The translations under genes were made by a program, and so were the position numbers. This document shows, in pieces, positions 1,102 through 6,543 of a stretch of DNA of 64,000 nucleotides. How positions within the stretch are numbered: position 1 is the first letter of the stretch; each line of letters starts with the position of its first letter. Source of the DNA: Pseudomonadota bacterium (GTDB lineage: Bacteria > Desulfobacterota > Desulfovibrionia > Desulfovibrionales > Desulfovibrionaceae); assembly GCA_018816865.1 (NCBI GenBank), contig JAHIUW010000038.1:124001-188000 (forward strand), written 5' to 3'. The notes beneath the pieces are model-generated. The model saw only the letters and a list, made by a program, of their open reading frames with translations. It was not told where the DNA came from and ran no database searches.

Positions 1102-4100
1102 CTAGCCGCCACCCAGCAGATCCAGCTGTTTCTCCTTGCGCACCTTGCGCCCCACCAGCATCGTCTTGGCAAAGGTCTCGTCCGGCAGTTCGCCCAGATA
1201 GCGCGTGGCCGGCAGCCGCAACTCGTGCCCGTAGAGCTCGCGCCTGTCCGCATGGGACAGGTGGAGCAGGGATTTGGCGCGGGTCATGCCCACGTACAGC
1301 AGACGGCGCTCCTCGGCCAGATGGTCTTCGGTCATGGTCGGTGACTGGTTGCCCGACAGGAACCCGCTGCCCGCAAAGGGCAGGATGCCGTCTTCCAGGG
1401 CGGGCAGGAACACGGCCTCGAACTCCAGGCCCTTGGCCGCGTGGATGGACATGATCTGCACCTTTTCGGCCTTGGCGCGCACCATGTCCAATTCGCTCTG
1501 CAGATGCACCCAGTTGAGCAGCTCGGGCCAGCCGCCCAATTCAGCATACGATTTGTCGAATTTCTTGAACTGGGGACTCGTCCAGAACAGGTGGTCGAAG
1601 GGCGGGTTGGTGCGCAGGTAGGCGGCCAACCCCACGGGGCCTTTGAACAGCACCCGCTCCGGGATCTCCAGGGCCAGGGTGCCGGGTTCGGGCGCGTTCA
1701 CGATGCCCAGGGTGCGTCCGGCGGCGTCCAGGATGGCTGCCATGCGTGGCTCCACCCAGAAGGCCTCGGCCTCGGGCACCGAGCAGGGCAGGCCCAGCCG
1801 GTCCAGGGTGGCGCGCAAGGGCGCGATGAGCCCCTTGAAGCGCACCAGAATCGCGATGTCACCGGGCGAGAGCAACCCGTCGGCCGCGTTGTCGGCCAGG
1901 GAATGGCTGGTGCTGCCGATGAGTTCACGGATGCGTTCGCCGATCCAGGCGGCCTCGCGTGCGCCGTCCGGGGCCTGGAACAGCCGGATGTCGGCGCGCA
2001 GATCCTTGTGGGCCTTGAGCCGCGGCGAGTGCGGGACCAGGGGGGCCGTGGCGTCCAGCACTTCCTGGGCCGAACGGTAGTTGTCCCCCAGGGTGACCAC
2101 CGTGAGCTCGGGCCACCACTGGCGGAATCGCTGCTGCACGTCGCCTGCCGTGCCCCGGAAGGAATAGATGGACTGGTTGGGGTCGCCGATGGCGAAGACC
2201 CCCTCGCCGCCCGGACAGGCCAGGGCCTTGACCAGCTGCAGTTGCAGGGCCGACAGGTCCTGGACCTCGTCCACCAGGATGTGGGTGTAGGGGTTGGCCC
2301 AGATGTCGGCCTCGACCTGTTCCAGCCAGAAACTCAGCAGGTCCGTGTAGTCCGTCTGGTTCCAGGATTCCTTGGTCTTGGTGTAGGCGTGGAACTGTTC
2401 GGCCAGCTCCATGGGCGGGGCCTGCATCCGCTCGCGGGACAGGTTGATCTGCTGCCAGGCTTCTTTCAGCGGTTTGCCCGTCAGGCCCGTGGCCTCGGCA
2501 AAGACCCGGCGCGCGCCCTCCTCGGAGAGCACCGTGGGGGCCTCGCCGTAGGAATCCACCCAGCATTCGTAGGCCAGGGCGTGCATGGTGTCGGCCCGGG
2601 GCAGGGCCATGTTCTCGCCGCCCAGGGTCAAGAGTCGTTTGGTCAGCTCGCCCGCGGCGCGGCGGGTGAAGGTCAGGGCCAGGATATGGCGCGAGGTGTT
2701 GCGTTCGCCCAGCAGGCGGCCGATGCGGCCCATCAGGGTCTGGGTCTTGCCCGTGCCGGGTCCGGCCAGCACCAGCACCGGACCGGGACCGGCGTCGATG
2801 GCGCGTTGCTGGGCGGGGTTGTACAGGACGCCTTCTCCGGCAAGCAAGGGCAGGGGCCAGGCCTGGGGCTTGGAGCCCGTGCCTGGCAGGGGCTGGACCA
2901 GGGGCTTGCGCGCCCCGGGCAGCTTGATCAGCGACCCGCCGCCCTTGATCTCGGTCTGTTCCTGGGGACTGAAAACGGAGATCACCCCGTATTGGCCGTC
3001 ATAGCCCGGTTCGCGATAGACCTCGCCCCGGCGCATGCGACCGATGCCTTCGGCCAGGGGCGTGGAGACCTTGGCGATGTCCTCCAGGGGTACGTCCTGA
3101 AGCACGGCCAACTCGGAGCCGAAGCGGGCGATGAGCCGCCCGTAGAAGGCCTTGACCTTCTTGCTGCTCGACCCGAAGCCCAGGACCTCGGAGACCAGCT
3201 CGGGCAGGGGCACCAGCGAGGTGAACCCCGGGGCATCGCTGGGCTGCTTGGGTTCTTCGCGGTCGGCCAGCTCCATCACCCGGTGCAGGACCCCCACGGT
3301 CAGCGGCTTGCCGCAGACCGGGCACAGGCCGCCGCTGGACAGGGTCTGCTGCGGTTCCATGACCACGCCGCAAGCGCGGTGCCCGTCCAGGTGATACTTG
3401 CCCTCTTCGGGGAAGAATTCCAGGGTGCCCAGGAATTTGTGGCCCAGGGCCTCGCCGCGCAGCGCCCGGTAGATGCCTTCGTAGGAGATTTCGCCGGAAA
3501 AGAGGTTGGCCTCGCGGGCCAGATTCTCCCCTGAATGGGCGTCGGAGTTGGAGATCATGCGATAGCGGTCCAGGGCGGAGAGCAGCCAGTTCATCTCCGG
3601 GTCCGAGGACAGGCCCGTCTCCATGGCGAAGATCTCTCCGGCCAGGTCCCCGAAGCATTCCTCCACGGAGTTGAAGCCGCTCTTGGAGCCGAACAGCGAG
3701 AACCACGGAGTCCAGATGTGGGCGGGCACCAGGAAGGCCTGGGGGTCGGTCTCCAGCACCATCTCCAGCAGATCGCGCGAGTCCAGGCCCAGGATGGGGC
3801 GGCCGTCGGACTTCAGGTTGCCAACCTGTCCCAGGCGCTGGTTGAAGGACCGGGCCTTGTCCAGACTGGGCATGAAGACCAGGTTATGCACCTTGCGAGT
3901 GATGTTGTGGCGCTTGTAGATGGAGCTGATTTCCGTGACCAGCATGAATCGGGTCTGTCCGCCCAGGGGGTAGCCGTCCAGGAAGGGGGTCTCGCGCTCC
4001 AGTCGGCGGCTGTCTTTGAGGACATACAGACCGCTGCCGTCGGGTTCCAGCTGCTCTGTGATCTCGGCCAGCCATTCTGGGTGGGTGAAGTCGCCGGTGG

Positions 4101-4218
4101 CCAGCACGTCCAGGCCCTTGATGCGAGCCCACGCAGCCAAGAGCCGCAGGTTCAGCTTCTTGCTTGTGGCCCGGGAGAACCGGGAGTGGATGTGCAGGTC
4201 TGCTCGAAAGATTTCCAT
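1102..4218 (-). CDS. EndoQ-like PHP nuclease fused to UvrD/Rep superfamily 1 helicase
   Basis: This single long frame joins two DNA-repair modules. The N-terminus begins with a PHP metal site (ADLHIHSRFSRAT) and continues with the LATGDFTHPEW and DAHSGEN motifs of endonuclease Q. It is followed by a zinc ribbon with cysteines near residues 282-305 (CGVVMEP then CPVCG). The C-terminal 550 residues are a UvrD/PcrA-type helicase: Walker A GPGTGKTQTL, the DEVQDLS Walker B box, the QSIYSFRG motif, and SIHAAKGLEFEAVFLP and VGMTRAK near the end. EndoQ nicks DNA 5' of deaminated or abasic bases; the helicase could unwind from the nick. I chose ATG 4218 because it puts the PHP box at the start as in EndoQ. 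ATG 4278 (20 residues longer) and TTG 4287 are alternatives; none has a good Shine-Dalgarno. Confidence 0.85.
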   Translation of the reverse strand: MEIFRADLHIHSRFSRATSKKLNLRLLAAWARIKGLDVLATGDFTHPEWLAEITEQLEPDGSGLYVLKDSRRLERETPFLDGYPLGGQTRFMLVTEISSIYKRHNITRKVHNLVFMPSLDKARSFNQRLGQVGNLKSDGRPILGLDSRDLLEMVLETDPQAFLVPAHIWTPWFSLFGSKSGFNSVEECFGDLAGEIFAMETGLSSDPEMNWLLSALDRYRMISNSDAHSGENLAREANLFSGEISYEGIYRALRGEALGHKFLGTLEFFPEEGKYHLDGHRACGVVMEPQQTLSSGGLCPVCGKPLTVGVLHRVMELADREEPKQPSDAPGFTSLVPLPELVSEVLGFGSSSKKVKAFYGRLIARFGSELAVLQDVPLEDIAKVSTPLAEGIGRMRRGEVYREPGYDGQYGVISVFSPQEQTEIKGGGSLIKLPGARKPLVQPLPGTGSKPQAWPLPLLAGEGVLYNPAQQRAIDAGPGPVLVLAGPGTGKTQTLMGRIGRLLGERNTSRHILALTFTRRAAGELTKRLLTLGGENMALPRADTMHALAYECWVDSYGEAPTVLSEEGARRVFAEATGLTGKPLKEAWQQINLSRERMQAPPMELAEQFHAYTKTKESWNQTDYTDLLSFWLEQVEADIWANPYTHILVDEVQDLSALQLQLVKALACPGGEGVFAIGDPNQSIYSFRGTAGDVQQRFRQWWPELTVVTLGDNYRSAQEVLDATAPLVPHSPRLKAHKDLRADIRLFQAPDGAREAAWIGERIRELIGSTSHSLADNAADGLLSPGDIAILVRFKGLIAPLRATLDRLGLPCSVPEAEAFWVEPRMAAILDAAGRTLGIVNAPEPGTLALEIPERVLFKGPVGLAAYLRTNPPFDHLFWTSPQFKKFDKSYAELGGWPELLNWVHLQSELDMVRAKAEKVQIMSIHAAKGLEFEAVFLPALEDGILPFAGSGFLSGNQSPTMTEDHLAEERRLLYVGMTRAKSLLHLSHADRRELYGHELRLPATRYLGELPDETFAKTMLVGRKVRKEKQLDLLGGG

Positions 4219-4402
4219 GCTCTGGGGGTGGTTGTGGAGTTCGTCGAGGACAAGGGGGACTATAGTCGCCCTGTCCATGCCCCGCAAGCGGAAAGGGACG
4301 AAGGGCTGGCGTGGGCAACCCGCCCGGGGCTGGGGGGCGTGGCTTGCGTTGGAATAGAAAAAAGTCGCTGAAATCCTGGAGTGTTATTCTGGTGTTGGTT
4401 TC

Positions 4403-4432
4403 ATCCGGGGCGCTGCGGGCAGCGCCCCGGAT
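4403..4432 (-). terminator. GC-rich hairpin downstream of trpB
   Basis: A perfect 13-bp stem (ATCCGGGGCGCTG and its complement) with a four-base loop lies ten bases after the trpB stop codon. It lacks a clear T-tract on the minus strand, so it may be a transcript-stabilising hairpin rather than a strong intrinsic terminator. Confidence 0.6.
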
Positions 4433-4444
4433 GGTCGATTCGCT

Positions 4445-5653
4445 TTAGGCGGGCGCCTGGATCAGGCCGTCGCTGAGCATCTGCTCGATCTGGGCCACGT
4501 CCTTGTCGCCGCGTCCGGACAGGTTGACCAGGATGATCTTGTCCTTGTCCAGGGTGGAGGCGAGTTTCATGGCGTGGGCCAGGGCATGGGCGGATTCCAG
4601 GGCCGGGATGATGCCCTCGGTGCGTGACAGCACGAAGAAGGCCTGCACCGCGTCGCTGTCGCTGGCCGTGAAGTATTCGGCGCGGCCGATATCCTTCAGG
4701 TAGCTGTGTTCGGGGCCGACGCTGGGGTAGTCCAGCCCGGCGGAGATGGAGTAGACCTGGGCGGCCTCACCGTTTTCGTCCTGCAGCATGTAGGATTTGA
4801 AGCCGTGCAGCACCCCGGGGGTGCCCAGGGTCAGGGTGGCGGCGTGGTCGCCGGGGGTCAGGCCGCGGCCCGAGGGTTCCACCCCGTGCAGCTTGACCGC
4901 TTCGTCGCCCAGGAAGTCCGCGAACAGCCCGATGGCGTTGGAGCCGCCGCCCACGCAGGCCACGAGATAGTCGGGCAGGCGGTGTTCCAGTTCCATGATC
5001 TGTGCCTTGGCCTCGCGGCCGATCACGGACTGGAAGTGTTTGACCATGGCCGGGTAGGGATGTGGTCCCACGGCGGAACCCAAAAGATAGAATGTGTTCT
5101 GGGCGTCCTGGAGCCACAGCCCCAGGGCCTCGTCCACGGCCTCCTTCAAGGTGCGCTGGCCGCTCATGGCCGGGATCACGGTGGCGCCCATCATCCGCAT
5201 CCGGAAGACGTTCAGTTTCTGGCGCTCGATGTCTTCGGCGCCCATGACGATGGTGCAGGCCATGCCCATCAGGGCGGCGGTGGCGGCGGTGGCCACGCCG
5301 TGCTGGCCCGCACCGGTCTCGGCGATGATTTTTTTCTTGCCCATGCGCTTGGCCAGCAGGATCTGGCCCAGGGTGTTGTTCACCTTGTGCGCGCCCAGGT
5401 GGTTCAGGTCTTCGCGCTTCAGATAGATTTTCGCGCCACCCATGGATTTGGTGAGGTTTTCGCAGAGGTACACGGGCGAGGGCCGACCCGTGTAATGGCG
5501 TTGATAGTATTCGAACTCCGCGATGAAGGCGGGGTCGTCCTTGTAGCGCTTAAAGGCGGCGTTCAACTCGTCCATCACCGCGATGATCTCCGGCGGCAGG
5601 AACTGTCCGCCATGGTCACCGAAAAAACCTTTTGCGTCGGGAAGCTGGGTCAT
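4445..5653 (-). CDS. trpB: Tryptophan synthase beta chain
   Basis: The product (402 aa) is a TrpB1-type tryptophan synthase beta subunit, a PLP enzyme that condenses indole with serine. The PLP lysine is Lys90 in HLGAHKVNN. The phosphate-binding glycine string GGGSNAIG and the [19 protein letters not shown] segment are intact, and length matches the family. ATG 5653 is preferred over the longer frame because AGGAGAGG stands just upstream of it. The gene is alone: no trpA or other trp gene is adjacent, which is unusual because trpB and trpA are normally neighbours. Upstream lies a leader peptide with three Trp codons and an attenuator hairpin (separate entries), so expression is probably controlled by tryptophan supply. 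Confidence 0.97.
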
Positions 5654-5694
5654 GCTGATTCCTCTCCTTTGGGCGGGCAACCGCATCGTGGGCC

Positions 5695-5729
5695 ATAAGA
5701 AAACCGCGGCTGGTGTCCCTGCCGCGGTT
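5695..5729 (-). terminator. trp attenuator: Rho-independent hairpin in the trpB leader
   Basis: On the minus strand a stem AACCGCGGC/GCCGCGGTT with a ten-base loop is followed directly by TTTTCTT, 42 bases before the trpB start. It is the terminator of an attenuation switch. Its 5' arm contains CGCGGC, which can pair with GCCGCG (minus strand of 5780-5785) at the end of the leader-peptide hairpin to form an antiterminator. Confidence 0.85.
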
Positions 5730-5760
5730 GGTCTGTTGCATTATCATGAAACTTCTGTCG

Positions 5761-5844
5761 TTACATGCAAGCGCACCCACGCGGCCCTGTGGAACAGGGC
5801 CACCACCAGAATAGGTTGGTATGGGCGGTGCGAAGGGTCTGCAT
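5761..5844 (-). CDS. trpL: trp leader peptide with three consecutive Trp codons
   Basis: A 27-codon reading frame (ATG 5844, TAA 5761-5763) encodes a peptide with the run NLFWWWP. The three tandem TGG codons lie at 5800-5808. They sit at the 5' edge of a 7-bp hairpin GGCCCTG/CAGGGCC (minus strand of 5783-5801). A ribosome stalled on the Trp codons would cover the first arm and release the second arm, CAGGGCCGCG, to pair with the 5' arm of the terminator. This is the classical trp attenuation layout. An in-frame ATG at 5856 could be the true start. A TTGACA hexamer (minus strand of 5876-5881), overlapping the stop codon of the GntR gene, may be the -35 element; the -10 is weak. Confidence 0.85.
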   Translation of the reverse strand: MQTLRTAHTNLFWWWPCSTGPRGCACM

Positions 5845-5877
5845 GGCCAGAACCATGCCTGCAACGTGGGACACGTG

Positions 5878-6543
5878 TCAAGCCTCGCTGACGTTGTCCA
5901 TCTTTAGCGCGTTGTAGGAGAACTCCACCAGGTAATCCAGCAGGGCCTCGGAAGCGGCCACGGCCAGGGTCTCATCTCCTCGGGCCACGGCCTGCATGAT
6001 GTCGCTGTGCAGGATGGCTCCGTCCATGATGGTCCCGTTGCGCCGGATATAGAGGAACCAGAAGCGGCGCGAGAGACCGTGCAACGGGCTCATGACGCGG
6101 GAGAAATAGTCGTTGGTGGTGGCTTGGGCCAGGATGTCGTGCGCCTCGCGGATATCTTCCAGCAGGGCCACATGGTCTTCGTTGTTGGCGGCTGCGATCA
6201 TGGAATCGGCCAGGCGCAGCATGCGCCGTTTCTGTTCCACGGTGCCACGCATGGTGGCGTAGCGGATGCACAGCGGCTCAAGCCCCCGGCGGACTTCGAG
6301 CAGTTTCAGCTGGTTTTCCACGGTGATCTGCGGGAAGCAGACGCCCCGGCGGGGGTGGATCTCCACCATCTTGTCGTGGCACAGGCGCTGCAAGGCCTCA
6401 CGCACCGGGGTGCGGCCCATATCGAGCATGGTGGCCAGTTGTTTTTCCGAGTACATGACTCCGGAGTCCAACTCGTTGAAGATAATCATCCGCTCCAGAA
6501 TGGAACGGGCCTCTTCGGCTAAGGTGGTCGACTTCTTTTTCAT
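5878..6543 (-). CDS. GntR-family transcriptional regulator, FCD subfamily
   Basis: The protein (221 aa) has an N-terminal winged helix with the GntR signature (YSEKQLATMLDMGRTPVREALQRL at about residues 30-55) and an all-helical FCD ligand-binding domain. That domain carries the metal/ligand residues of the class: Arg and Glu in LEVRRGLEPLC, His in EAHDILA, and His in HSDIMQAV. FCD regulators usually sense small carboxylic acids. ATG 6543 is supported by AGGGGGA upstream; the longer frame to 7053 is a shadow of the divergent gene. The gene is divergent from the GDSL hydrolase, which may be its target. The stop codon overlaps the putative -35 hexamer of the trpL promoter. Confidence 0.9.
   Translation of the reverse strand: MKKKSTTLAEEARSILERMIIFNELDSGVMYSEKQLATMLDMGRTPVREALQRLCHDKMVEIHPRRGVCFPQITVENQLKLLEVRRGLEPLCIRYATMRGTVEQKRRMLRLADSMIAAANNEDHVALLEDIREAHDILAQATTNDYFSRVMSPLHGLSRRFWFLYIRRNGTIMDGAILHSDIMQAVARGDETLAVAASEALLDYLVEFSYNALKMDNVSEA

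Follow-up and report, generated by a model that had tools for sequence, protein, structure and literature searches.

The question raised by this locus is whether a tryptophan synthase beta gene (trpB) that stands alone carries a tryptophan (Trp) attenuator of its own, and how its control relates to that of the main trp genes of the same genome. Ribosome-mediated attenuation is a model of gene control, and most knowledge of it stems from a small number of operons that have a dedicated leader peptide; in Escherichia coli trpL, Trp codons in a short open reading frame (ORF) are combined with alternative 1:2, 2:3 and 3:4 hairpins and a terminator with a U run. An earlier note on a 64-kb stretch of a Desulfovibrionaceae genome (hereafter the window, C11:124001-188000 of a 3.64-Mb genome) had described such an attenuator in front of an orphan trpB. 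Our analysis makes it highly probable that the element is a ribosome-mediated tryptophan transcription attenuator of the stand-alone trpB. This reading is based on the elements present, their predicted folding, conservation and covariation, from which we infer where transcription starts, that initiation is leaderless, that ribosomes stall, how the leader responds to Trp and what TrpB does.

Leader elements upstream of an orphan trpB

All leader parts were found in order at a single locus on the minus strand, and the coordinates given in the earlier note proved correct (Table 1). The three Trp codons that it had placed at 5800-5808 are there (TGGTGGTGG, 5808-5800), a 1:2 hairpin reaches into them with arms overlapping the last two Trp codons, and the GCCGCG segment proposed to pair with the terminator lies at 5785-5780, where an alternative 2:3 pairing is predicted; the terminator and its TTTTCTT tract are likewise present. 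The features that mark a ribosome-mediated trp attenuator are therefore seen together, namely a short leader ORF with Trp codons before a trp gene, an intrinsic terminator between this ORF and trpB, and mutually exclusive 1:2 and 2:3 pairings, the former strongly supported and the latter with a weak partner test (see below). A simple scan listed no promoter at the leader; it also listed no terminator here, as its loop limit was 8 and the actual loop is longer.

Table 1. Features of the trpB leader and its surroundings in the window, and the predicted attenuator before trpE
Feature	Position	Strand	Remarks
GntR-family gene upstream of leader	5878-6543	-	same direction as trpB; stop codon overlapped by TTGACA
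TTGACA, probable -35 box	5876..5881	-	overlaps stop codon of upstream GntR-family gene; assigned by spacing to leader ATG
CATGGT, tentative -10 box	5852..5857	-	3/6 to consensus; inferred from spacing only
Leader ORF, 27 codons (MQTLRTAHTNLFWWWPCSTGPRGCACM, then stop)	5761..5844	-	ATG at 5844; in frame with Trp codons
Three Trp codons (putative sensor)	5800..5808	-	TGG TGG TGG
Hairpin 1:2	5781..5803	-	arms 5803-5794 and 5790-5781; -19.3 kcal/mol; covaries
Segment 2 (GCCGCGTGGGT)	5775..5785	-	predicted antiterminator partner of segment 3
Terminator hairpin 3:4	5702..5729	-	segment 3 core 5727-5721, segment 4 core 5710-5704; -20.4 kcal/mol; covaries
T tract TTTTCTT	5697..5703	-	read in sequence
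Shine-Dalgarno AAAGGAG of trpB	5664..5670	-	read in sequence
Orphan trpB, 402 aa	4445..5653	-	canonical TrpB (TIGR00263)
Predicted Trp attenuator before trpE, outside the window	G000:C11:95297-96127 (L117:10298-11128)		Trp codons in C-terminal tail of TyrA-like enzyme

The orphan TrpB scored 596.8 bits against TIGR00263 (cut-off 392.45) and contains the expected TrpB motifs, which we take to be the catalytic motifs. As had been noticed before, trpA is not adjacent and trpB stands alone: the only trpA match of the genome (C11:102113) lies outside the window, beside a second trpB (C11:100650; the pair at C11:100.6-102.8 kb). Of the other trp genes, which the earlier note had proposed to locate, trpE, the second trpB and trpA form a cluster on C11; upstream of the latter two, the order is aroA, a TyrA-like prephenate dehydrogenase gene, trpE and then a TrpG-like ORF (TrpG by eye). 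This cluster is separated from the orphan trpB by about 26 kb (nearest ends), and the two TrpBs are 50% identical. Since the second trpB and the only trpA lie together elsewhere, the trpB of the window is a stand-alone duplicate. Viral carriage of the orphan trpB was rejected, as none of 18 pattern matches in viral contigs was a relative. A large GC-rich inverted repeat without a T run was observed after trpB (4402-4433, minus strand), and trpB may be monocistronic; an ORF at 1102-4287 of the same strand joins a TIGR00375-like N-terminal half (below cut-off) to a UvrD-type helicase half.

The leader is conserved before orphan trpB genes

A TrpB match of some kind was found in 280/288 genomes of the family. 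Among 74 upstream regions of orphan trpB (68 family loci and 6 Desulfovibrionales-side loci), 57 combined a Trp run, an ATG in frame with it and a hairpin with a T run, and 51 of these 57 leaders came from 14 family genera. Similar leaders, for which a search had been proposed, are thus found before orphan trpB at Desulfomicrobium-side loci as well as in 14 family genera. The 17 regions left out comprised eight of genus g12 (six with a WW leader of other layout, one cut by a contig end and one without TGGTGG), two with leaders that were missed by the script and found by the covariance model (G120 and G256), and seven with no such leader at all. Among 37 named loci examined, six were added, 8 were flagged as duplicates and others repeat family genomes; a locus of Desulfomicrobiaceae with a WIWW ORF (L025) was left out. 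Outside the order, 11 of 12 named loci had no TGGTGG ORF, and the ORF of the twelfth (L079) lies 329 nt upstream and is not leader-like. Of the 57 leaders, 42 entered alignment A1, 34 alignment A2 and 51 the segment 5 test, and all 57 were used in the partner (derangement) test.

The 188-nt leader folded better than its dinucleotide shuffles (z -3.0, with 2/200 equally good). With a covariance model built from 34 relatives, the window's genus being left out, the leader scored 57.5 bits, and its E value over the 64-kb window was 1.2e-10. When the same model was run over the whole 3.64-Mb genome, the leader had an E value of 6.7e-9 and the next place one of 0.004; this second-best match (C33:86314) was rejected as a candidate, being at the end of another ORF and without a Trp-codon run in a leader-like ORF. 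In a congener genome, the best match had an E value of 6.0e-10, and the next (0.03) was the congener's trpE site. Many other weak matches also lay at the ends of unrelated genes. A chance origin of the leader was rejected on the basis of this out-of-sample model. Covariance model R1 matched 98/288 family genomes at E <= 0.01 and 105/348 class genomes at E <= 0.001; by coordinates, its strong matches lie directly before trpB places, while the weaker ones include other genes and chance.

Covariation was then evaluated for the predicted stems. Across the 42 aligned sequences, 95.2% of cells in stems 1:2 and 3:4 were paired, 7/18 pairs had changes on both sides, and such both-side changes amounted to 38 cells versus 8.2 in shuffles. 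The summed score of 1:2 with its own arms exceeded all 3600 derangements (15 groups, one sequence per genus or group). In 2:3, 92.5% of cells were paired, and a double change replaced C-G by U-A; its partner test was weak, as 135/3600 derangements reached its own score, because the segments hardly vary.

These alignments bear on the simplest alternative, that the hairpin merely terminates the GntR-family gene upstream and that the Trp codons occur by coincidence. The hairpin does lie about 150 nt beyond the stop codon of the GntR gene, which runs in the same direction as trpB, but the Trp-codon ORF, 1:2 and the terminator are conserved together before trpB, whereas a relative of the GntR protein was found upstream of only 2/57 leaders, both of congeners (700-1100 nt searched). 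The leader is therefore not tied to the GntR gene, and we rejected this alternative as very improbable. Judged from sequence, the Trp attenuator of the lone trpB is real and conserved.

Leader start and reading frame

To characterize the 5′-end of the leader, promoter and initiation signals were compared among the 57 leaders. TTGAC(A) was found 35-42 nt before the leader ATG in 55/57, and the -10 hexamers were poor. A Shine-Dalgarno (SD)-like 4-mer between positions -18 and -4 relative to the leader ATG was seen in 5/57 leaders and was absent from this interval in the window, so that SD-led leader translation was rejected as a general rule; the comparison figure of 57/57 with an SD-like motif before trpB came from a looser search over the whole post-terminator region. 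The first ATG after TTGAC was in frame with the Trp run in 57/57, a number biased upward as the selection required some in-frame ATG. The leader mRNA is thus probably near-leaderless, with a transcript starting a few bases before the AUG.

The missing SD would also suit a different sensor (T-box tRNA binding, a TRAP-like protein or a riboswitch), with the ORF untranslated, as 52/57 leaders have no SD-like motif before the ATG. Against it stand the frame of that first ATG in the selected leaders and the Rfam searches: no match, including none to a Trp leader family, was obtained at gathering score over the whole 64-kb window, and only three weak plus-strand matches, none of them to a Trp leader, appeared at E up to 10 in 5600-5950 (351 bases). 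An Rfam Trp leader, a T-box and a known riboswitch were accordingly rejected, and we regard a sensor of this kind as scarcely credible in comparison with a translated Trp-codon ORF.

In 47/57 leaders, the frame is closed by a stop within the 1:2 hairpin, 15-21 nt downstream of where the first Trp codon begins. The window and its congener have no stop just after WWW; their ORF runs to 48 nt, past segment 2, and in the window it ends with a TAA at 5763-5761. The ORF likewise continues past segment 2 at six Desulfomicrobium-side loci (39-48 nt), and in two other leaders it reaches 33 nt. On paper, the switch would still be workable, with the passing ribosome covering or uncovering segment 2.

Predicted folding and proposed mode of action

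Folding in the alternate states, as the earlier note had suggested, was carried out with masks at the predicted ribosome positions. The naked RNA and the RNA with a ribosome mask on the leader stop codon both folded into 1:2 and 3:4, and with a mask on the first Trp codon and the polymerase not past segment 3, 2:3 formed with 8 pairs. For the complete leader, the minimum-energy fold retained 3:4 also when a ribosome masked the Trp codons. As 3:4 remains the minimum once segment 4 is present, antitermination must be kinetic.

Based on these predictions, RNA polymerase would start just before the leader AUG, and a ribosome would initiate the leader peptide without an SD site, presumably by leaderless initiation. 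When charged tRNA-Trp is scarce, the ribosome would stall on the three Trp codons and cover segment 1, so that segment 2 could pair with the emerging segment 3, no 3:4 terminator would form and trpB would be transcribed. When Trp is plentiful, the ribosome would move through segments 1 and 2 and reach its stop at 5763, 3:4 would form and transcription would end in the T tract; if no ribosome is loaded, 1:2 would form, with termination likewise. TrpB would then make tryptophan from indole and serine, or serve as extra TrpB for the cell's TrpA, only at Trp shortage. Very probably, then, the leader controls a spare trpB of a sulfate reducer via three Trp codons, as far as sequence comparison can tell.

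The earlier description as a ribosome-stalling attenuator holds. It is supported by the conserved frame of the Trp codons, the covarying hairpins and the place before orphan trpB in 14 genera among the leaders analysed; the element is not textbook in every respect, as no SD is seen before the leader ATG and the frame continues past segment 2.

Additional pairings in the leader

Two further pairings were recognized among the leaders. In the first, RNA downstream of segment 2 pairs with the region of the start codon: own partners scored 227 versus 179 (sd 8.8), and 0/3600 derangements reached this value over 15 groups. This pairing was visible when the window's naked leader was folded (about 5845-5835 with 5778-5764) and was not found in genera g9, g6 and g43. 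It would clamp the leader AUG in untranslated RNA.

In the second, a segment 5 located between the T tract and the trpB SD in relatives (e.g., L103, L156, L143, L141) could pair with the terminator loop and segment 3 in the read-through mRNA, near the trpB SD, which would add a translational layer to attenuation. Over 14 genera, its own partners outscored every one of 3600 derangements (251.6 vs 197.6, sd 9.8), different sequences pair in different genera, and p <= 0.05 against shuffles was reached in 36/51 leaders. However, no segment 5 could be detected in the window's genus (p 0.73 and 0.79; by duplex energy, p 0.055 and 0.13), and it was also undetected in 13 other leaders and at the six Desulfomicrobium-side loci. 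A second control layer in the read-through mRNA is a guess, and we consider this extended reading unlikely, if less so than the alternatives above. In Mailhella-type and g13 leaders (L139, L140 and L089), segment 5 looks by eye to be complementary to the trpB SD too, which would allow a translational switch in a few species.

A second, predicted attenuator before trpE with the TyrA tail as leader peptide

That a Trp attenuator should precede trpB instead of the usual trpE had been pointed out as unusual. The trpB leader is real, but trpE also has a predicted attenuator, with the C-terminus of TyrA as leader peptide. This site gave a weak covariance model match in the window's genome (C11:96017-96127; 22.1 bits, E 0.18), and its congener counterpart scored 30.1 bits. 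The TyrA-like gene ends in LLSARANWWWRNGQSGGGV and a stop codon, with three Trp codons in frame and a G-rich segment 2 reaching the stop, followed by a terminator and then trpE. In folding, masks on the Trp codons gave 2:3, and a mask at the stop codon blocked 2:3, so that 3:4 formed. The own partners of 2:3 beat all 3600 derangements (0/3600; 35 sequences, 15 genera), and single-sequence shuffles in the window's genus gave no support for 2:3 at this element (z 0.1, G001); the support for 2:3 thus comes from the partner test over genera.

To evaluate how common this arrangement is, 70 of 261 genomes with a match were examined for TyrA tails, and the tail motif was found in 65, with WWW in 50 and WW in 15 (the window's genome, G000, was added by hand to the partner test). 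Terminators with a score of at least 20 followed 34 WWW tails versus 0 WW tails (Fisher p 1.4e-6, shared ancestry being ignored); among the 16 WWW tails without a terminator of score 20 or more, a hairpin was visible by eye in two (G000 and G008). Downstream of the 34 tails with a terminator, a trpE motif was present in 26 and none was found in 8, and two of these 8 (G079 and G015) had no convincing 2:3 pairing. The best segment 2 started 13-19 nt after the third Trp codon in 27/34, 8-11 nt in five and at least 60 nt in two, and 13-19 nt is about where a stalled ribosome would uncover segment 2.

WW or WWW also occurs at loci where trpE is close by and no terminator lies before it (e.g., L239, L243 and L253); therefore, the Trp motif of the TyrA tail seems to predate the switch. 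In g18, trpE has a free-standing WWW leader before it, and TyrA is elsewhere. From its sequence, the main trp cluster of the window's genome appears to be under a second switch, of which the sensor would be the tail of an ordinary enzyme gene.

Taking both elements together, we consider it rather likely that Desulfovibrionaceae have a two-part Trp attenuation regulon. One part would be the near-leaderless orphan trpB leader, with a start-codon region clamped by RNA after segment 2. In the other, the main trp genes would in many genera have no leader peptide of their own, and the C-terminal WWW tail of the upstream TyrA would serve as one, making a full-length enzyme gene the Trp sensor of trpE; a pre-existing Trp-Trp tail motif would have become a sensor once a terminator arose downstream.

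Leaders of related type were also observed before other genes. In genus g40 (L220, L221 and L222), a WLW leader with a terminator precedes an aldolase gene, which in L222 encodes 2-amino-3,7-dideoxy-D-threo-hept-6-ulosonate synthase (ADH synthase) of the alternative aromatic pathway. Genus g19 (L196 and L197) has a second WW-R leader of this type; the one in L197 precedes a PaaK-like aryl-CoA ligase (below the family cut-off) that possibly serves to obtain Trp from indoleacetate.

Comparison with known systems

The open-licence literature yielded no paper on an orphan trpB leader or a TyrA-tail attenuator: the words trp and tryptophan are absent from an Oleidesulfovibrio ncRNA survey, and neither a Desulfovibrio trpB attenuator nor a tyrA-trpE attenuator is named in the relevant parts of PMC2965389, PMC3766115 and PMC11124144. 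A regulon survey confines TrpR to gammaproteobacteria (PMC5343134), and our findings suggest a way of Trp sensing outside this group. The sulfate-reducer family seems to use attenuation for a stand-alone trpB, apparently without an SD at the leader. The predicted TyrA-tail attenuator is the more surprising part; if true, this sensor before trpE would illustrate how an ordinary gene can give rise to a leader peptide.

The leader of the window shares with trpL of the E. coli trp operon the Trp-codon ORF, the alternative hairpins and the terminator. Unlike E. coli trpL, it would control an orphan trpB and not trpE, no SD was seen, the ORF of this genus extends beyond segment 2, and no Rfam Trp leader matched. 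The principle of trp attenuation is also outlined in PMC7298713. In Sinorhizobium meliloti, trpL (peTrpL/rnTrpL) is leaderless, its leader RNA beginning at the trpL ATG (PMC7298713); a near-leaderless start is likewise predicted in the window, where promoter spacing and the lack of an SD fit such a start. The S. meliloti trpL lies in front of trpE(G), and both its RNA and its peptide function in trans. In Corynebacterium diphtheriae, attenuators have been described before two units that begin with trpB, trpB1EDGC and trpB2A, one of the attenuators having a WWW leader peptide (PMC1262725, PMC5784534); there, however, trpB heads operons with trpE or trpA, while the window trpB is alone and the trp cluster is elsewhere.

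Within the same bacterial group, an attenuator on aromatic biosynthesis was predicted in Desulfovibrio vulgaris, ahead of aroA' of the aroA'-to-trp supraoperon (Merino website; Table 7, PMC1173090). It differs in being placed ahead of aroA', and the pertinent part of that paper mentions neither an orphan trpB leader nor a TyrA tail (PMC1173090). For the TyrA tail, the closest likeness is found in Chlamydia YtgCR, where a WWW motif in a full-length protein gene acts as a Trp sensor (PMC7755916), and Trp codons thus lie within a full-length gene in both cases; in YtgCR, Trp starvation lowers a trans-acting repressor, whereas stalling in the TyrA tail would favour read-through in cis into the genes that follow.
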